Source: a virus. From it: a stretch of 23,257 nt of DNA. The translations under genes were made by a program, and so were the position numbers. The notes under the pieces are model-generated. The model was given only the letters and a program-made list of their open reading frames with translations. It was not told where the DNA came from and ran no database searches. Numbering within the stretch: position 1 is the stretch's first letter; every line of letters starts with the position of its first letter. Positions 4,830-22,327 of this stretch are shown in pieces. The stretch lies in the IMG/VR virus record IMGVR_UViG_3300033233_000168, positions 1-23,257 of that record. One strand, 5' to 3'.

Positions 4830-5251
4830 GAGCAAAACCTTTCCATGAATGTTGGTTCGTATTCAACCAAAACCGGCCTGGCCGCGCGCTGGCGGAACGC
4901 AAAGAAGCGTTTCACAAAGGGCCAGCGCCGCCGGGCCTGACGGAACATCTGCCGGCACGCCGCGCGCGTCCCTACCACTTCCCGCACCATCAAAGCTTCG
5001 CCCGGCGGAACCGGATGCCAGTTGAATTCCGCCGTTTCCGTTCCCGGTTGAAACGGCCACGCGAATCCCACGGCCTCAATCGCACCGCTTCCCGGTTCCC
5101 GGACGACGAATATCGTGCCAGCCAGCGCATGAAAACCCACATAAAGGAAAGTCGTGGTTCGACTCCAGCCACCGAAACACTTCCCCGCGTGGCCCAGGCA
5201 GAACTCCGTGACTTCGTGGACGCGCTCCCAAAATGGCTGTAATTCGTTCAT
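4826..5251 (-). CDS. Small virion-region protein, 141 aa, possibly GNAT-like (T7 gp13-position)
   Basis: ATG overlaps the upstream stop (ATGA), and the stop overlaps the next start (GTGA). The order of elements resembles a compact GNAT fold: an N-terminal helix (QPFWERVHEVTEFCLGHAGK), two beta strands with a turn (TIFVVREPGSGAIEAVGFAW), a later strand-helix containing VREVVGTRAACRQMFRQA, and a final PVLVEYEPTF strand. The usual acetyl-CoA loop (Q/RxxGxG/A) is not clearly present, so activity is doubtful. It lies between the tail nozzle-like gene and the ejection-like genes, exactly where T7 has gp13 (138 aa, small internal virion protein). I am confident it is a gene, less so of the GNAT resemblance. 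Confidence 0.75.
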   Translation of the reverse strand: MNELQPFWERVHEVTEFCLGHAGKCFGGWSRTTTFLYVGFHALAGTIFVVREPGSGAIEAVGFAWPFQPGTETAEFNWHPVPPGEALMVREVVGTRAACRQMFRQARRRWPFVKRFFAFRQRAARPVLVEYEPTFMERFCS

Positions 5252-6873
5252 GTTTCTTCGTTCAACGGGTTGATGAAAGCCGCCGCGCTCACGTTCTTCA
5301 ACCAGAACCAGCCGAATGGCGCCGCCGTCTCGATCTTCACATACGCCTCGTTGAAATCGATCAGTCCGCGGATGTTCTCCGTGATGGTGATGGGGCCGGA
5401 ACTCGCCAGCAGGAACGGCATGGTGCCTTCACCCAAAATGTCACCTTCCTGGGTGAATACGCCGGTCCAGTTCTTGATCTCAGCGTTGTCCGCAATCCAC
5501 GAAACCAGCACCGCGCTGTTGCCCGCGCTGAACTTCAGAATGGTGGTGTCGCCCGTTTTGGTCGTGATGGGCTCGTTGAAGAGCCAGCTCTTCGGCCATA
5601 CCTGCGTGGGATAGCCGACGGCGTTGTCCGTGTAGGTGCTGTCCTCTTTTTCCAACGTCGGCGTATCTTTCCACTGGTTCACGTAGCCGGTCGTGTCACC
5701 GAACACCAGTTTCGGGATGCCGAGGAAGCGGGTTACTTCCACACACAACCCGTTCCAGTTGGTCCATAACCCCAGCCACTTCCGCAACCGGCCATTCCAG
5801 ACGATTACCGCGTTGTTCGTCGCGCTCCCGTCGATGGGGACGAAGAAAAGCGCCAATTCCTGATACTTCTTCGCCGTGATGCCCGCCCAAGCCGACTGGT
5901 TGATCCGCGCGATGATGCTCTGGATCGGCTGGCTTAGGGTGTCGCCCAGTTCCCACTGGCCCGCCGCCGCCTGCATCCGTTGCACGCTCCGGATCCCGTC
6001 TTGGGCCATGAAAAGGATGTCGTTCCCGTAATTGCACCAAGCATCGCGACCGACACAGCCTATCCCCTCGGCAATCGGCGTCAGTTCCGCCGCGCTGAAA
6101 GCGCTGACCGTGCCGAAAAGTCCGTCTGAAACCGGGTTGGTGTCCACCAGCCAGATGGAATTGCGCTTGAGCACAGCCATGATATTCCCCTGCATCTTGC
6201 CAAGGGACACGATGGGATCCCCGTCACCGGTGCCGATCCGGAAACTGCGCTTCGTCCAGTCCCATTGGCCGGCAGAGAAGTCCAAGAGGTTGCTGACGTA
6301 GATGGTATCCGGAGCCGTGGCGCGCCCGGCGGCAAACATCCGGACCGTGTGCCACAGCAGAATGGTGGCGTCGCCAGGGCAATCGGCGTTCGTGCTGCCC
6401 GCCGCCGTGAATGCCGCGCCGTCGTAAATCGCCGCTTGGCCGTCGCCGTAAGCCAGCAGCAGCTTGTCGATGCCCTGCGCCATCGCCAGTTTGGCGTCCG
6501 CCGTGGGGGCAAAGCTGGCCGGCTTGGCCGCCGTAATGTCCGTCCACGCCCCCGCCTCATACTTGCCAATCCCGAAAGCCCCGGTGATGGTCAGGGCGGC
6601 AATAAGTTGGTGATAAGTCGGCGTGTCGAAATACTTGAGGCTCCGCGCCACTGTTGTTCCCAAAATGGGAAGCGTTGAAACCGTAGGGATTGCGTCCGCG
6701 CCGGGTCGCGTGCGCGCCTCGTAATTGTCCCGCACGAGCACGTTCAATAAGTGCTGGCATTGGTTGGGGTCGATCAGGGTGGACCGATGGAACGAGTTTT
6801 CCCCGCCGGAAAAGTCCTGTTGAAATTCCCAGCTTAGAACGTCGTCGAGTTGCTCATTTGATAATGATGGCAT
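5248..6873 (-). CDS. P22 gp10 / T7 gp12-like tail nozzle protein, 541 aa
   Basis: The N-terminal stretch around residues 21-58 (FSGGENSFHRSTLIDPNQ, then LLNVLVRDNYEARTRPG) is the type of opening seen in podoviral tail proteins of the P22 gp10 / tail tubular B group. The body contains repeated blades suggestive of a beta-propeller, for example LLLAYGDGQAAIYDGAAF, DTIYVSNLLDFSAGQWDW, NIMAVLKRNSIWLVDTN, NDILFMAQDGIRSVQRM, and NNAVIVWNGRLRKWLGLWTNW. Length is in the normal range for these proteins. It would form the distal tail tube/nozzle that plugs the portal-adaptor channel. It follows the adaptor-like gene by three bases and overlaps the next by ATGA. The exact subfamily is uncertain. Confidence 0.8.
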   Translation of the reverse strand: MPSLSNEQLDDVLSWEFQQDFSGGENSFHRSTLIDPNQCQHLLNVLVRDNYEARTRPGADAIPTVSTLPILGTTVARSLKYFDTPTYHQLIAALTITGAFGIGKYEAGAWTDITAAKPASFAPTADAKLAMAQGIDKLLLAYGDGQAAIYDGAAFTAAGSTNADCPGDATILLWHTVRMFAAGRATAPDTIYVSNLLDFSAGQWDWTKRSFRIGTGDGDPIVSLGKMQGNIMAVLKRNSIWLVDTNPVSDGLFGTVSAFSAAELTPIAEGIGCVGRDAWCNYGNDILFMAQDGIRSVQRMQAAAGQWELGDTLSQPIQSIIARINQSAWAGITAKKYQELALFFVPIDGSATNNAVIVWNGRLRKWLGLWTNWNGLCVEVTRFLGIPKLVFGDTTGYVNQWKDTPTLEKEDSTYTDNAVGYPTQVWPKSWLFNEPITTKTGDTTILKFSAGNSAVLVSWIADNAEIKNWTGVFTQEGDILGEGTMPFLLASSGPITITENIRGLIDFNEAYVKIETAAPFGWFWLKNVSAAAFINPLNEET

Positions 6874-9560: not shown

Positions 9561-10205
9561 TCACGTTGTTCCTTTCGGCTGGTAATAGTTCCGGGCCTGT
9601 TCCAACAAATCCTGCAAAGTCTTGATCGCCGCGCGTGTCGCATCGGCATTAGGCTCGTTCCGCAGCGCCTTGTAAGTCCGCGTGGCCGCCTTGAGTTCGC
9701 GCAGATACGCCGGCCCAAACTCCCGCACCAGATCCGCCGCCGCGGTCACGTCCTGGCCCACGGCCGCGCGGTTGCGGTATTCCCATTGCACAAAGGCATC
9801 CATCGAATCGCCGGCAGTTTGCGTCAACGCCTCGGCCTGCACTACGAGCGGGTCCGCCCCAGGCGCAATGCTCCCCTTCGGCACCAGGCAGCCCGTGGCG
9901 CCCAGTGTCAACGCCAGCAACCCGCCGATGATCCAGACGGGCGGACGAAACGGCGGCACGCTGCCACCGGCGGCGGGCGGATCATCCTCCGCTGGCGGGA
10001 TGGGTGATTGCTTCAGGTAGGCCAGCAGGCCCACGAGCGCCCCGCTCGCGAACAGCACCCCCACCTGTTTCAAATTCAAGCCGCCGATGTTCGCGCCCGC
10101 CGCGTCAGCGATGCCGATGCCAATGGCCGACATGCCGCTCGTGGCCCCGCCCGTAACGACGGCGGCGATCAGTCCGCGAATCCAGTTGTTCACTTTGTTT
10201 GTCAT
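9561..10205 (-). CDS. Holin-like membrane protein fused to a lipoprotein module, 214 aa
   Basis: Residues 7-66 resemble phage holin-type proteins: WIRGLIAAVVTGGATSGMSA, a second helix around KQVGVLFASGALVGLLAYLK, ending in the KQSPIP turn. A Pro/Asp-rich linker follows. Then VWIIGGLLALTLGATGC (90-106) has the form of a lipoprotein signal with lipobox ATGC at C106, and a helical charged domain of about 105 residues follows. An in-frame GTG at residue 83 (base 9959) preceded by GGTGG could start a separate 132-aa lipoprotein. The N-terminal part would permeabilise the inner membrane and the C-terminal part could act as an outer-membrane spanin-like lipoprotein. Both roles are inferred. An AAGG element lies 10 bases before the main ATG. 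Confidence 0.72.
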   Translation of the reverse strand: MTNKVNNWIRGLIAAVVTGGATSGMSAIGIGIADAAGANIGGLNLKQVGVLFASGALVGLLAYLKQSPIPPAEDDPPAAGGSVPPFRPPVWIIGGLLALTLGATGCLVPKGSIAPGADPLVVQAEALTQTAGDSMDAFVQWEYRNRAAVGQDVTAAADLVREFGPAYLRELKAATRTYKALRNEPNADATRAAIKTLQDLLEQARNYYQPKGTT

Positions 10206-14993: not shown

Positions 14994-16136
14994 TTAGACA
15001 AACGTGCTCTTGCAGCGGGCCACGACGAGCCGCGGGGTGTCCGTCGTCTCGTTGGTTTTCAGCAGGCCCGCCTGGTAAAACGCCTTCCAGCCGAAGGTGG
15101 TTTTCTGGTTCAGGGGATCCGCCTTGTCCGCCTTGTCGAGGATGATCATGCTCGGCGCCTTGGGATCCGAGCCCGCCCGCATCCCGCTCAGTTTCGGGAC
15201 GCCGAAGGCTTCGGCCCCGAGGTAGAGACAGGCGTAGATGTTGTCGGACACCGTATCGCTCGGCGCATAGATGCCGTAGCCGGTGGACTGCTCGATGAAC
15301 GGCGACTGGTTCTCGAAGAACCGGCAGCCGTCCAGCTCGAATTCAACCCACTGGTCCAGCGTGCCCGCAGCCCGGTTGTTGTTGTAGATGGCCGAGGCAA
15401 TCCACGTGGCTTCCTGGCGGAGGTCCGCCATGATCTCGGGCGGCAACCCGCACATATACTTGCCGTTGATCATCGGGACGCCGGGCTTGCCCGCCACGCC
15501 CTTGAGGCGGGTCACGCAGCCGATGTGAAAGGCGCGCGTGAACTTGGCGTTGCTGTTCGACAACGCCGCCAGGGTGGCGAAGTCGTTCGCGCTGTTCAAC
15601 GTGTTCGCCACGCCGGCAAAGCGCTCAAAGCTGCCGTTCGAGTTGAACATGGTCGCCTGCGCGGCCGGGATTGAGTTGGGAGTGCCATCCGCGTCCGCCA
15701 CGCCAGGGCTGGAGCAAATCGCGTGCGAACACACGAAATCGAAGTCCAGCGCCGCGTCCGCCGCCATCGTCTTGGTGTTGATCTGGAGCGTGTCAAACAG
15801 GTCAACCGCCCGGGTGATGTCCGAAACACTGGACAGGTCGCCGCGCTGCTTGAGCTGGATGTCCACGTAACCGATCGGGGCACCCTCGGTTTCGTCCGGC
15901 GGCAGGCTTTCGCTCAGCGCGCGGGGTCCGCTGGTGGCCGTGCCCTTCTTCGCGCGACGCGGCCGGAAGAACCGGATGGTGTCGCCCGCCGAGTTGGCCG
16001 GGAGTTCCTTCGCCACACCGAAGGTGCCGAGACGAAGGTTGTAAATCAGCTCCTTCAGGAGCTGACGTGAAAAGTATTTCTGCTGACGATCCGCAAAATC
16101 CGCCGGAGCGGTTGTAAGAATTTTGGCTGCGCCCAT
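14994..16136 (-). CDS. Major capsid protein, N4-gp56-like family, 380 aa
   Basis: The N-terminal pattern is that of the N4 gp56 group: TTAPADFADRQQKYFSRQLL (8-27), KELPANSAGDTIRFFRPRR (43-61) and, after a variable loop, GYVDIQLKQRGDLSSVSDI (89-107), with helix VDLFDTLQINTKTMAADAALD (111-131). Length is typical of HK97-fold capsid proteins. It directly follows a scaffold-like gene and precedes a strong hairpin, as expected for the most heavily expressed structural gene. No clear Shine-Dalgarno sequence lies before the ATG. The protein would assemble the icosahedral shell. The family call rests on motif reading; the capsid role is well supported by order and length. Confidence 0.85.
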   Translation of the reverse strand: MGAAKILTTAPADFADRQQKYFSRQLLKELIYNLRLGTFGVAKELPANSAGDTIRFFRPRRAKKGTATSGPRALSESLPPDETEGAPIGYVDIQLKQRGDLSSVSDITRAVDLFDTLQINTKTMAADAALDFDFVCSHAICSSPGVADADGTPNSIPAAQATMFNSNGSFERFAGVANTLNSANDFATLAALSNSNAKFTRAFHIGCVTRLKGVAGKPGVPMINGKYMCGLPPEIMADLRQEATWIASAIYNNNRAAGTLDQWVEFELDGCRFFENQSPFIEQSTGYGIYAPSDTVSDNIYACLYLGAEAFGVPKLSGMRAGSDPKAPSMIILDKADKADPLNQKTTFGWKAFYQAGLLKTNETTDTPRLVVARCKSTFV

Positions 16137-17688: not shown

Positions 17689-18132
17689 TTACGATTGCCG
17701 CCGGCGCCGCTGTTTGTCAACAGGTTTCAGCGCCGTGGGTTCATCTTCCACCAAAGCTTTCGCCCGCTCGATGTCCTCGGCGGTAGCCGGAGAGGAATCC
17801 ACGGCGCGTGGTGATTCAGACGCTTCCGCTTGAGCCATGCGCTTATCCTCTTCGATCTGCCGTTGCTCGGCTTCCTCTTGCAGCCGCTTGCTCTCCGCAA
17901 TCTGGTCGAGGCGGTTGCGCTCAGCTTGGGTGGCGCGCGCTTCGCCGTCCCGTTGAATGTCCTCAAGATTCACTTCGGTGGGGAACGTGAACCCGGTTTT
18001 CTTCGCCGGATCGTCGAACACGATGACGATGTTGTCCCCGTCCAGCACCGTGCTGTTCACGTGATGATTGGGCGGCAGGGCGTCGTAAATACGGTTCAAC
18101 ATCAGCGGCAGGACAAGTTTGAAAAGACTCAT
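17689..18132 (-). CDS. Head-region coiled-coil protein, 147 aa
   Basis: ATG overlaps the portal stop (ATGA). The first 55 residues are hydrophobic and globular (SLFKLVLPLMLNRIYDALPP; DNIVIVFDDPAKKTGFTFP). They are followed by a Glu/Arg/Gln coiled coil (ERNRLDQIAESKRLQEEAEQ) and a basic tail ending RRRRQS. There is no enzyme motif. Coupling to the portal gene suggests a role in head assembly. Family unknown. Confidence 0.75.
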   Translation of the reverse strand: MSLFKLVLPLMLNRIYDALPPNHHVNSTVLDGDNIVIVFDDPAKKTGFTFPTEVNLEDIQRDGEARATQAERNRLDQIAESKRLQEEAEQRQIEEDKRMAQAEASESPRAVDSSPATAEDIERAKALVEDEPTALKPVDKQRRRRQS

Positions 18133-20003
18133 ATGGTGGGCGGTTGTTCAGGTTGCGGTTGTTCCATGCCCGGCATGGCCGGCGGTTGTGGGTTCTCCAT
18201 CTGGGTCAACATCTGCTTGATCTGCTTGGCCGCGGCAGGGTTCTGCTGCTGCAACATCTCCAGATGTTGGGCCAGGTGTTCCTGCACACGCTGGCGCGCG
18301 TGTGGATCCACCGGCGTAGCCAACTGGCCGCACGCATGTAGCCAGTCGATCAGCGCCTTGATTCTCGAAGCGTGGTCCTCTTGGGGCTGGACCGTGGCCG
18401 GGAATGGCGGTTTGCCGGCTCCCGGCGCCAGCAACGAGTTGACCTCGACCACTTCGTCCTCGTATTCGGTGGCCCCGCGCAGATTCGACGGGACAAAGGC
18501 TTTCAACGCGGTCGGTCCGTCGAACGCCTGGAGAGCCTTCTTCGTCAGCACTTCCTGATTCACGTTCGGATCACCTTGGAAAGCCTGCTTGGCGGACATG
18601 GCCTTGTTGAAGCGCAATCCCGGGTTCCACGCATCCGGCGCGCCGTCGAGAACGATCAGGTATTTGTCATGCAACGCCTGCGGTGAAAGTTTCCCCGTCT
18701 TGCCGCTGGCGTAGAAAGTGAAGTCGCGTTCCTTGAACTGGCATATCATGCCCCACAGATGACGCCCGAGCCGGGTGTTGTCCTCGCGGAACAATGCCGC
18801 ATCGTCACTCGTCCCCGTCTGTTGCAACGCGCCGATCCGGTTGTTCTCGGTGGCCGTGCGCTTCGTCCCGCCGCCCCCACCGTCGCCGCGCGTAATACCA
18901 AAATCGGGCACCTGGGAAATCTCTTCGCCCATCTGCCGCGTGAACATGATTTCTTCGTCATAAGAAATCGGGGGCGGACCCTGTTGCACGCCCTTGATGT
19001 TGCCGGGAATGTATTCGCCCGGCTGCCAGCGGTAGTTCGCCGCGTTGACGATCTCTTTCTCGCCCGTGTAAATAGGACGGTTGGCAAACGTCATGGCATC
19101 CGCCTTCTCGTTCCACACCTTGGTCCCGTATTGCTCGAACGGCGCCAGCAGTTCGGCGATGCCGCGCGCCGCATACCATCCCTCATCGCTCTTCACTTCC
19201 ATCACGAAGTCGAAGAACGGCAGACTGACCTTGCCTTGCACCTTGTAGGGCACCCCGAACGGCTTCCTTATGTCGACGTCCGGCGCCATCGGGCAGTAGG
19301 TGTTCACCGTCCAGCCGCCGCCCGTTTTGGTGTAGTGTTCAAACAGGAGGCACTGTCCGGGCTGCCTGGAGAACGCAATCCCCTCGCGCAGCCGGATTTC
19401 CTCATTCCACAGTCCCAAACTCTGAAAATCCTTGCTGCCTTTGATTTTGTCCACCGTGGCCGCATCCGTCGCGTAACGCCGGTCGAGGCGCTTGTAACTC
19501 TCGACGGTCATGGGACGAACATGCACAAACTCGTCCGCATCCTCAAACCCTCGCGCCTCTTGGGGCATGATGATGTGGATGGGGTGGATGTGCTCGAACT
19601 TGAACTTGTAACCGTCCAACGGGTCAATCGTCGCCTTCAGGATGCCGCGCCCGTAGAGCCTCCGCGCGTCCATCACACTCCGCATCTTGCGAATAAAATC
19701 GGTCTGGGTGGTCAACTGATAGGTGAGATAGTCAGCGGCCGCGTCGGTCATGTCCTCCAACTGGTCCACCAACGACGTGAACGAGTAGATTCGATCCGCG
19801 CCCGTCAACTGGCCGGCGTCAAACGGCTTCAGCTTGCGGATGGAATTGTCGATCAGGGGCAGATGACCGTCGGCACAGCCCGGAAACGGCTTGCTCTGCC
19901 GCGGCAATCCTTCGTGCCGCATCCGGTAGTAGAGCCGGGCCTTGTTCTCCCAAACGAGGCGTTCGGTCAGCATCCGCACCGCGTTGTCGAGGAGTTGCTT
20001 CAC
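18129..20003 (-). CDS. Portal protein, podovirus type, 624 aa
   Basis: The length (624 aa), all-helical N-terminus (TERLVWENKARLYYRMRHEG), the middle wing/stem sequence (DYLTYQLTTQTDFIRKMRSV; ARRLYGRGILKATIDPLDGY) and a Gln/Pro/Met-rich C-terminal tail fit portal proteins of large podoviruses. Position between terminase and scaffold/capsid is the standard one. The dodecameric ring would sit at one vertex, act as the DNA channel for packaging and bind the tail adaptor. The start is uncertain: GTG at 20003 lies only five bases from the 3' end of the tRNA gene and has no Shine-Dalgarno sequence. ATG at 19973 (614 aa) is the alternative. Confidence 0.87.
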   Translation of the reverse strand: MKQLLDNAVRMLTERLVWENKARLYYRMRHEGLPRQSKPFPGCADGHLPLIDNSIRKLKPFDAGQLTGADRIYSFTSLVDQLEDMTDAAADYLTYQLTTQTDFIRKMRSVMDARRLYGRGILKATIDPLDGYKFKFEHIHPIHIIMPQEARGFEDADEFVHVRPMTVESYKRLDRRYATDAATVDKIKGSKDFQSLGLWNEEIRLREGIAFSRQPGQCLLFEHYTKTGGGWTVNTYCPMAPDVDIRKPFGVPYKVQGKVSLPFFDFVMEVKSDEGWYAARGIAELLAPFEQYGTKVWNEKADAMTFANRPIYTGEKEIVNAANYRWQPGEYIPGNIKGVQQGPPPISYDEEIMFTRQMGEEISQVPDFGITRGDGGGGGTKRTATENNRIGALQQTGTSDDAALFREDNTRLGRHLWGMICQFKERDFTFYASGKTGKLSPQALHDKYLIVLDGAPDAWNPGLRFNKAMSAKQAFQGDPNVNQEVLTKKALQAFDGPTALKAFVPSNLRGATEYEDEVVEVNSLLAPGAGKPPFPATVQPQEDHASRIKALIDWLHACGQLATPVDPHARQRVQEHLAQHLEMLQQQNPAAAKQIKQMLTQMENPQPPAMPGMEQPQPEQPPTI

Positions 20004-20008
20004 AGGAA

Positions 20009-20083
20009 TGGTTGCAGGGGTTGGAATTGAACCAACGACCTCAAGGTTATGAGCCTAGCGAGCTTCCACTCCTCCACCCTGCA
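20009..20083 (-). tRNA. tRNA with CAU anticodon, initiator-like (fMet-type)
   Basis: A complete 75-nt cloverleaf is encoded including the terminal CCA. The acceptor stem TGCAGGG/CCCTGCA has 7 pairs, with T1 opposite A72. The anticodon loop is CTCATAA. The T stem GTTGG/CCAAC is perfect with loop TTCAATT. Initiator-like features are A11:U24 in the D stem, the D-arm and variable-loop text shared with bacterial tRNA-fMet (GGTCG after the anticodon arm), a weak 1:72 position, and two of the three G:C pairs at 29-31/39-41 (A29:U41, G30:C40, G31:C39). Odd points are mismatches at 13:22 and 28:42, and U1:A72 in place of the usual C1xA72 mismatch. It is probably a phage-carried initiator or an elongator-Met/Ile variant. 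It sits in an 97-base gap between the terminase and portal genes. Confidence 0.92.
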
Positions 20084-20100
20084 TTTAAGTTGCGAAGTCA

Positions 20101-21555
20101 TCAGAAATACCGCCGTTCTCCACCCACTTCTGAACCTTCCTGTTCGTTCTGTCTAGCAAATTGTTGCGCCTGTTCGATCAGGTTGAACGACTTTGCCTGC
20201 GGCGCCGGCATCATGCAGCACAACACCGCGTCCGCTTCGTCCGGGCTTTCGCCTGCACGTTTCTTGTAATCCTCCTTCTTCTCGATCTCAAGCAGTCCGC
20301 TGGAATTCACCTTGCCCTTACGCCCGATAATCTGCGCCTTCAAGTCCGGGTCATTGGGAAGAATGACCGCGCACCGCTTGATCTTGGCAATCCCCTCGCC
20401 CCATGCCTCGGCAATCTGGTTGCGGTAGCCTTGGTTGTAACGCTCTTCGCTGCCGCCGTGGAATTCGTTGATCTTCCAGTCGAGTTCATGCAGCCGGTGA
20501 ATCATCGGCAACCCAAGTCCATCGCCGTCACCGCTGATGTGGCTAGCGTCCAAGCGGTCTGACTTCTGTAGAGCGACAAACTCACGCAGAAAACCGCCCA
20601 CCGCGCTCATGGTGTCCCGTTCAACCCATTTCTTCGGGATCCTCACCCGGTTCCCGCGCCGATGGCCGATGACGTTCTTGTCCCGTCCCGCCGCGAAGTC
20701 ACAAAACGCATGTTGGTCACCATCGACAAACGGGGGCGGGTTTTCAAGGCACCGGTCATACTCCGTGAGGCTAATCAGCGCGTCCTCGACGATGTTGGTG
20801 AAGTTTCCGAATACCGTTGACTGCACAAACGGGTTGGCCTCGCCGTGCTTATCAATCAACCTTTCGATCGCGCCACGGTTCAGCCACCAGCCATCTTCTT
20901 CCAAGCATTCCATGCGGGAAATCTTGTGGTGCGAGTAGTGAGCGACGTTCTTCGTCTCCATCTCGTAAAACGATCCTTCCGGACTTCCCGGTGAACCGGT
21001 GGCCAGAAACCAAGTGGGGTTGCAACGATCTTCCGCGGCCTGACAAATCTCCCGGCTGACGCCTTGGCATTCGTCAATCGCGATGAACAAGGGCCGGTCC
21101 ACGTCCTTGTGGTAGCCTTGAAAGTAATGTTCGTCCTTGGTGCTGACGCCGCTGTAGGCATGGGTCCACTGCTTGGTGCGCTCATCGTAGCGCTTTATAC
21201 CGGTTGCCTGGAATTCCCACTTAGCAGGACTGAACAGATGCGCGTAGCCCTTCAGTGCCGGGATTAGCTGGTCCTCAATCTGCCGATAAACGCCGGCAGT
21301 GGACACCGCCACGGCATTACGGATCTCGATGGCGTAGAGAATGGCCGCGCACAACACGCGCCGCGTCTTTCCCACTTCGTTGGCGCATCGGTTCACGACG
21401 CGCGAACCGTCCCGGCTGAAGATGTCCCGCAACACCGCGGCTTGCTTCGGGTGCAGCTTCATCCCCAGCCGCTCCTCGGCGTAGCCGTCCGGCGTGGCCA
21501 GCCGGCGCGCCTTTGCTTGGAGCGCTTTGTCCGACATGGCTTGCTGCGGGTCCAT
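20101..21555 (-). CDS. terL: Terminase large subunit, 484 aa
   Basis: The ATPase domain shows a terminase-type Walker A, CANEVGKT (57-64), Walker B LFIAIDE (156-162) and the coupling motif ATGSPG (186-191). The RuvC-like nuclease domain shows CDFAAGRDKN (Asp286), SGDGDGLG (Asp343/345) and SPDEADAV (Asp439/442). Start ATG 21555 was chosen because GGAG lies 11 bases upstream and it follows the 87-aa gene by two bases; a 47-residue extension upstream lies over that gene and is rejected. The protein cuts the concatemer and drives DNA into the procapsid through the portal. Family length is normal. Both active sites look intact. Confidence 0.93.
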   Translation of the reverse strand: MDPQQAMSDKALQAKARRLATPDGYAEERLGMKLHPKQAAVLRDIFSRDGSRVVNRCANEVGKTRRVLCAAILYAIEIRNAVAVSTAGVYRQIEDQLIPALKGYAHLFSPAKWEFQATGIKRYDERTKQWTHAYSGVSTKDEHYFQGYHKDVDRPLFIAIDECQGVSREICQAAEDRCNPTWFLATGSPGSPEGSFYEMETKNVAHYSHHKISRMECLEEDGWWLNRGAIERLIDKHGEANPFVQSTVFGNFTNIVEDALISLTEYDRCLENPPPFVDGDQHAFCDFAAGRDKNVIGHRRGNRVRIPKKWVERDTMSAVGGFLREFVALQKSDRLDASHISGDGDGLGLPMIHRLHELDWKINEFHGGSEERYNQGYRNQIAEAWGEGIAKIKRCAVILPNDPDLKAQIIGRKGKVNSSGLLEIEKKEDYKKRAGESPDEADAVLCCMMPAPQAKSFNLIEQAQQFARQNEQEGSEVGGERRYF

Positions 21556-21557
21556 CG

Positions 21558-21821
21558 TCAGTTCTTCTCCGGTGCTTCCGGCTTGCGCACAAAGTTTGGC
21601 ATGGGTCCCGTGTGCATCTTGGGCACTTCGCTGGCCCCCAGCTTGGCCGCGATCATTGGAATGGCCTTTTTGATCAGGTTGGAGAGTTCGAAGCAATAGG
21701 CGATTTCGCCCCGCGTGGCCAGCGCTCCTGGCCCGAACACGTTGCCGCCGTTGTCGGTGGTTTTCACGCCGACACCGACGTCGCCGTTGATCGTTTCCGT
21801 TATGGTGATCTCAATTTTCAT
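21558..21821 (-). CDS. Small protein between terminase subunits, 87 aa
   Basis: ATG overlaps the TerS stop (ATGA), and the stop is two bases before the TerL start, so the gene tiles exactly between the terminase subunits. The N-terminal strand pair KIEITITETINGDVGVGVKT is followed by a Gly/Asn turn, a helix (EIAYCFELSNLIKKAIPMIAAKL) and a Lys/Pro-rich end. I do not know the family. Position suggests a packaging accessory role. Confidence 0.75.
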   Translation of the reverse strand: MKIEITITETINGDVGVGVKTTDNGGNVFGPGALATRGEIAYCFELSNLIKKAIPMIAAKLGASEVPKMHTGPMPNFVRKPEAPEKN

Positions 21822-22327
21822 GCGGTTTGTTTCACAATTTGCTTGGCAATCTCGACGGCCAGCGCATCGAACGCGCCGGCGCCGTTCGGGTCCGTCAATA
21901 CCTGCTCGTGCTTATCCTTCCACTTGTCCGGCATCCGGTTCTTCATAAAGAAGCGCACCGTGCCCGGGTCCGGCGGGAAGTATTCCAAGTAAGTGTGCTC
22001 GAAACTTTCCCCCTCGTGCTGGAAGATTTTTACCGCAGGCCGAGTGTAACCCATCACCAGATCGAACACCCTGGCCGCGGCCTTTCCGTTCGCTGGCATC
22101 TTCCCCGCCTCAATGGACTGTAAAAACTTGGTGTGTTTCAGCTTCCAGTTGTTGAATGTTTTTTCGCAAACACCAAAGAATCCGGCCATTTCCTTATCCG
22201 TGTAGCCGGCGACGGCAAAGCCAAACACCATCGTGGCATATTGGGCCCGGTAAGCGGTCGGTCGTCCTTCTGGCTTCGACGCTTTCGCCTTCCGCCGGCG
22301 GCGTTTGTTGGTGGGGGCGGCACTCAT
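21818..22327 (-). CDS. terS: Terminase small subunit, 169 aa
   Basis: A basic N-terminus (NKRRRRKAKASKPEGRPTAY) leads to a helix-turn-helix around residues 30-62 (AVAGYTDKEMAGFFGVCEKTFNNWK), then a central helical region and a C-terminal part with RFFMKNRMPDKWKDKHEQ. These are the usual elements of phage TerS proteins: DNA recognition followed by the oligomerisation part. The length is typical, and it lies one small gene upstream of TerL. It would bind the packaging site and regulate TerL. ATG overlaps the stop of the replication-like gene (ATGA). Confidence 0.87.
   Translation of the reverse strand: MSAAPTNKRRRRKAKASKPEGRPTAYRAQYATMVFGFAVAGYTDKEMAGFFGVCEKTFNNWKLKHTKFLQSIEAGKMPANGKAAARVFDLVMGYTRPAVKIFQHEGESFEHTYLEYFPPDPGTVRFFMKNRMPDKWKDKHEQVLTDPNGAGAFDALAVEIAKQIVKQTA

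Follow-up and report, generated by a model that had tools for sequence, protein, structure and literature searches.

A solitary initiator-type tRNA gene between the terminase and portal genes of a virus in IMG/VR

A tRNA gene at the terL-portal junction

The window analysed here is the whole of a 23,257-base IMG/VR virus record, a single contig. ARAGORN detected exactly one tRNA gene in it, at 20009-20083 on the minus strand, with CAT at position 33. Read from 20083 to 20009 on that strand, the gene is TGCAGGGTGGAGGAGTGGAAGCTCGCTAGGCTCATAACCTTGAGGTCGTTGGTTCAATTCCAACCCCTGCAACCA. The tRNA model of Rfam (RF00005) scores it at 58.6 bits against a cut-off of 29, and the E-value of 1.6e-10 rules out a chance cloverleaf. 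The cloverleaf with encoded CCA noticed in a preliminary description of this DNA is therefore real. The features of the region are listed below.

21818..22327, minus strand: terminase small subunit (TerS; PHROG phrog_309, 1.8e-34)
20101..21696, minus strand: terminase large subunit (terL; PHROG phrog_2, 3.6e-12), given from the TTG start of the longest ORF; the true start may be further in
20084..20100, minus strand: 17-nt leader, from the terL stop to tRNA position 1
20009..20083, minus strand: initiator-type tRNA gene (tRNA-fMet, CAU) of 75 nt with a short 7-nt D loop, as called from ARAGORN, Rfam, class columns and profiles
20049..20051, minus strand: CAU anticodon, in the loop CTCATAA, which is the same in 37/37 host initiators compared (see below)
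20009..20011, minus strand: encoded CCA, 5 nt before the portal GTG start
18129..20003, minus strand: putative portal protein, GTG start at 20003 (weak Pfam SU10_portal match, 0.0029; at least 116 viral relatives)
14994..16136, minus strand: major head protein (PHROG phrog_1357, 2.3e-17)
5248..6873, minus strand: amidase-type lysis protein (PHROG phrog_5107, 1.5e-15)

From the terL stop (20101) to the portal GTG (20003) there are 97 nt, most of them taken up by the tRNA, with 17 nt remaining on its 5' side and 5 nt on its 3' side. The tRNA lies on the same strand as the late genes. The name "portal" was assigned from the weak Pfam match together with the gene order TerS-TerL-X-...-MCP and the conservation of this block in relatives, and the start position of the gene is kept in two of those relatives (L003 and L009). 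That the tRNA stands alone in the window, inside the late operon and between terL and portal, had been proposed previously and is supported by ARAGORN, by the PHROG match of TerL and, more weakly, by the portal call.

No sigma-70-like promoter was found near the tRNA and no terminator of its own was detected; two terminator-like matches sit on the opposite strand. The 17-nt leader had no convincing match upstream of other initiator tRNAs, so its source was not found. We considered a prophage attachment site in a tRNA gene and rejected it, as the tRNA is complete and lies within the head operon, and no integrase occurs among the 18 window ORFs scanned against PHROGs.

A longest-ORF rule, which inflates the number, gives GTG or TTG starts to 6 of the 23 main ORFs. 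Such starts do exist, as the preliminary description stated, but its word "many" is less well supported. A clear ribosome-binding site is missing from most genes in the window. Between 1405 and 23127, only 5 of the 18 large ORFs scanned have a PHROG match of known function (TerS, TerL, major head protein, a tail protein and the amidase).

Class of the tRNA

Because the loop CTCATAA is common to elongators as well, a CAU loop is not diagnostic alone. The comparison set for the window tRNA held 37 initiators and 18 CAU elongators, all distinct, from genomes of Verrucomicrobiota and Acidobacteriota, the two phyla that make up the host set. Class separation is best at columns 11:24, 12:23, 3:70 and 31:39. 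At all four the window tRNA is in the initiator state (A:U, G:C, C:G and G:C, respectively), which matches 36-37 of the 37 host initiators and none of the 18 elongators. A11:U24, in place of Y11:R24, is found in every host initiator and in no host CAU elongator. G2:C71, C3:G70 and A73, which are formylase and MetRS elements, are present together with the anticodon; we took these elements, and those for Ile, as listed in PMC9976931.

Position 1:72 holds U1:A72, a weak pair, consistent with the absence of a strong 1:72 pair in initiators. U1-A72 occurs in 66/4438 bacterial initiators (1.4%) versus 3/5179 elongators (0.05%), and initiator tRNAs show high CCA templating (PMC5143459). Of the three G:C pairs typical of initiators at 29-31:39-41, the window tRNA has two; the third pair is A29:U41, as in 18 of the 37 host initiators.

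Profile scores separate the classes widely. The window tRNA scores 70.6 bits with the initiator profile and 19.1 bits with the elongator profile. The difference of 51.5 comes at the bottom of the span for host initiators (51.8 to 66.7), the training set of the profile. The values for independent viral initiators (38.2 to 64.4) bracket it, and those for elongators (-66.9 to -49.4) are distant. As controls, E. coli fMet, Met-e and Ile2 were all classed correctly.

An elongator tRNA-Met is rejected by these scores and by A11:U24 and G12:C23, where the elongator has C11:G24 and U12:A23. A lysidine-type tRNA-Ile2 is likewise rejected: in place of the Ile elements C4:G69, U12:A23 and C29:G41, the window tRNA has A4:U69, G12:C23 and A29:U41. 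By columns and profiles, then, the window tRNA is an initiator and neither a Met elongator nor Ile2. The preliminary description had called it initiator-type and had named Ile2 or elongator Met as outcomes that would refute this; neither was obtained. Its base calls (A11:U24, G30:C40, G31:C39, U1:A72, A29:U41, G13xG22 and U28xU42) were also right.

Relatives, host and origin of the insertion

The closest relatives, L003 and L007, have 80% (TerL) and 84% (portal) amino acid identity to the window, and their terL and portal genes are 6 nt apart. In L009 (TerL 67%, portal 63%) the two genes overlap by ATGA. ARAGORN detected no tRNA in the loci of the relatives, and neither did Rfam in 27 related records, 17 of which exceed 35 kb. 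The tRNA is thus in no relative, which rules out a conserved family trait. Since the site is empty in relatives, some of which are fragments, the tRNA is most likely a gain in the lineage of the window after its split from the closest known relatives. We found no closer viral copy and no second phage with the same tRNA, in a search from which records near the window may be left out. With a single contig and no second phage carrying the tRNA, conservation under selection cannot be shown. The phage group itself is poorly sampled: isolates are few, and the viral relatives of its portal number at least 116.

The insertion broke the close terL-portal spacing that the relatives keep, and with it any translational coupling between the two genes. 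This raises the possibility that the tRNA acts in cis, with RNase P and 3' cleavage cutting the late mRNA in two, so that portal would be uncoupled from terL and begin with a 5-nt leader. The placement and orientation are perfect for such a role, as the portal GTG follows the CCA by 5 nt. However, any tRNA would serve and an initiator in particular is not needed, the relatives do without a tRNA, and most genes in the window have no clear ribosome-binding site anyway. We give this explanation very little chance.

The host phylum is likely Verrucomicrobiota, judging from sequence similarity. Two MAGs hold portal relatives, one from Verrucomicrobia (55%) and one from Acidobacteriia (43%), though MAG contigs can be misbinned. 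The best cellular matches of the tRNA are at 87% in Verrucomicrobiota and 83% in Acidobacteriota, and the top TerL match among annotated phages is an Akkermansia phage (32%). Chromosomal tRNA-fMet genes of Verrucomicrobiota (e.g. L138, L141, L140) share A11:U24, G12:C23, A29:U41 and U1 with the window tRNA, as well as GG:CC adjoining the anticodon loop and, in one order, the 75-nt form with a short D loop. They are 86-87% identical to the window tRNA, which differs in having G13xG22 and U28xU42. None of the genomes sampled (288 from Verrucomicrobiota, plus 137 from one order, and 149 from Acidobacteriota) held an exact donor.

U1:A72 and A29:U41 had been described as departures from tRNA-fMet. 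Within this clade they are ordinary: the Verrucomicrobiota initiators fetched commonly have U1:A72 or U1xU72, and commonly A29:U41. Several of these also share the short D loop that makes the window tRNA 75 nt long, and 75 nt is the length of most initiator matches in one order. It should also be noted that the chromosomal initiators of Verrucomicrobiota (e.g. L140, L138) are of two forms, one of 77 nt with U1:A72 and C73 and one of 75 nt with U1xU72 and A73, both of which depart from the textbook C1xA72.

Predicted fold, phage parallels and possible roles

The real oddities are the two mismatches, which the preliminary description had placed at 13:22 and 28:42 and which we confirm as G13xG22 and U28xU42. 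G13xG22 occurs in 0/37 host initiators. Non-pairs at 28:42 also occur in 0/37 and are rare among 44 viral initiators. The cloverleaf of the window tRNA has a predicted energy of -19.6 kcal/mol and the best alternative fold is 9.1 lower, in calculations that ignore modified bases and magnesium. The same gap has a mean of 0.4 and a maximum of 4.5 in the 37 host initiators, and 1.0 and 6.2 in the 44 viral initiators with CCA. With G13xG22 and U28xU42, the predicted cloverleaf is thus weaker than that of every host initiator compared.

Such a weak core would mean either reduced efficiency or early decay. A chance-captured initiator tRNA that is losing its fold and has no useful role would explain two uncompensated stem mismatches and the absence of the tRNA from all relatives. 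Yet the mismatches lie outside the acceptor stem (7 bp), T arm, anticodon loop and CCA, all of which are intact, and this favors a working tRNA. In addition, U28xU42 is a single substitution, leaving the anticodon stem one base off that of common viral initiators (GCAAGG...CCTTGAGG, e.g. L215 and L238), and the tRNAs of phage Sf14 are also less stable than those of the host (PMC12482277). We regard a decaying passenger as possible but unlikely.

Initiator-type tRNAs were found in 40 and at least 120 stretches in two scans of viral contigs. These counts are lower bounds, as the patterns were strict, and some of the loci may represent host DNA or attachment sites, being close to an integrase or the end of a contig. 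ARAGORN confirmed at least 154 viral loci, and in at least 93 the initiator was the sole tRNA of the fetched stretch. A tRNA-Met resembling that of the window is carried by many annotated phages. In the available part of PMC12429752, Sinorhizobium phiLM21-like prophages are likewise mid-sized phages with a solitary tRNA-fMet; unlike in the window, a terL-portal location is not reported there. The earlier view that a lone initiator-type tRNA is unusual in phages therefore does not hold. On these sequence comparisons, the phage initiator tRNA is a known kind; its terL-portal position is rarer and recurs in unrelated phages.

That recurrence is seen in two Erythrobacter phages, ZS04 (L396, PV416405.1, 3000-3076) and vB_EliS-R6L (L397, KY006853.1, 2500-2576). 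In each, an unannotated tRNA of initiator profile lies in sense orientation between terL and portal; according to the R6L paper, a tRNA was not detected in that phage (PMC5463345). As in the window, 28:42 is mismatched (A.A in both). Unlike in the window, the gap is longer and holds an extra ORF, and the tRNAs have C11:G24 and C1xA72. No similarity of the TerL and portal proteins of these phages to those of the window was detectable. In ZS04 the tRNA is followed, by eye, by a terminator-like GC-rich hairpin with a T run. Two further loci are partial parallels: L345 has a sense-strand initiator tRNA (9708-9780) directly downstream of terL, and L412 has one (5147-5221) directly after portal, which is not exactly the terL-portal junction. 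Their terminases are not close to that of the window.

The shared 28:42 mismatch would fit a back-up initiator, with an altered anticodon stem that hides the phage tRNA as VapC-type host nucleases cut the host's own initiators. Cleavage of initiator tRNA by VapC enzymes has been described (Winther and Gerdes 2011, Lopes 2014, both cited by PMC10264068). However, the known cut is in the anticodon loop, which is unchanged in the window tRNA, and the loop-escape signature that PMC10264068 describes is therefore missing. Phages are also reported to tend to avoid tRNA-fMet where VapC cuts the anticodon (PMC10264068), and two independent cases of the mismatch at terL-portal are too few to build on. 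We consider this reading improbable. Its broader form, that unrelated phages repeatedly put an initiator tRNA with a stem weakened at 28:42 between terL and portal, where it would be made late and survive nucleases that destroy the host initiator, appears to us highly improbable.

The explanation we find reasonably probable is that the window carries a captured tRNA-fMet gene that is co-transcribed late, matured and used as a working initiator to supplement initiation. A tRNA-fMet gene would have entered the terL-portal junction in the lineage of the window and would share the late transcript. Release of the tRNA would fall to host RNase P and 3' processing, with CCA already encoded, and host MetRS would charge it before formylation. 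It would then add to the host initiator pool while structural proteins are made. The two stem mismatches probably make it somewhat weaker than the host's own tRNA, and its position would matter only by giving late expression.

Phage tRNAs are usually explained by codon supply. This is inapplicable to an initiator tRNA, which serves start codons and not a codon class. The other explanations, namely initiation supply, RNA processing and replacement of cleaved tRNA, can therefore be tested cleanly in a phage whose sole visible tRNA is an initiator. Our survey indicates that initiator-type tRNAs are common in phages and that annotation can miss them, as in Erythrobacter phage R6L.

Among 89 ORFs flanking viral initiators, we found one TerL (L345), one portal (L263), two major head proteins (L222, L334), one head protease (L291) and two other virion proteins (phrog_1623); these counts have no elongator control set and we claim no enrichment for head genes. 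"Portal" matches of six members to phrog_15528 were discarded because an equal number of members match NUDIX families, and they look like a shared NUDIX domain. The initiator tRNAs at L222, L334, L291, L263 and L310 are solitary and have head-gene neighbors.
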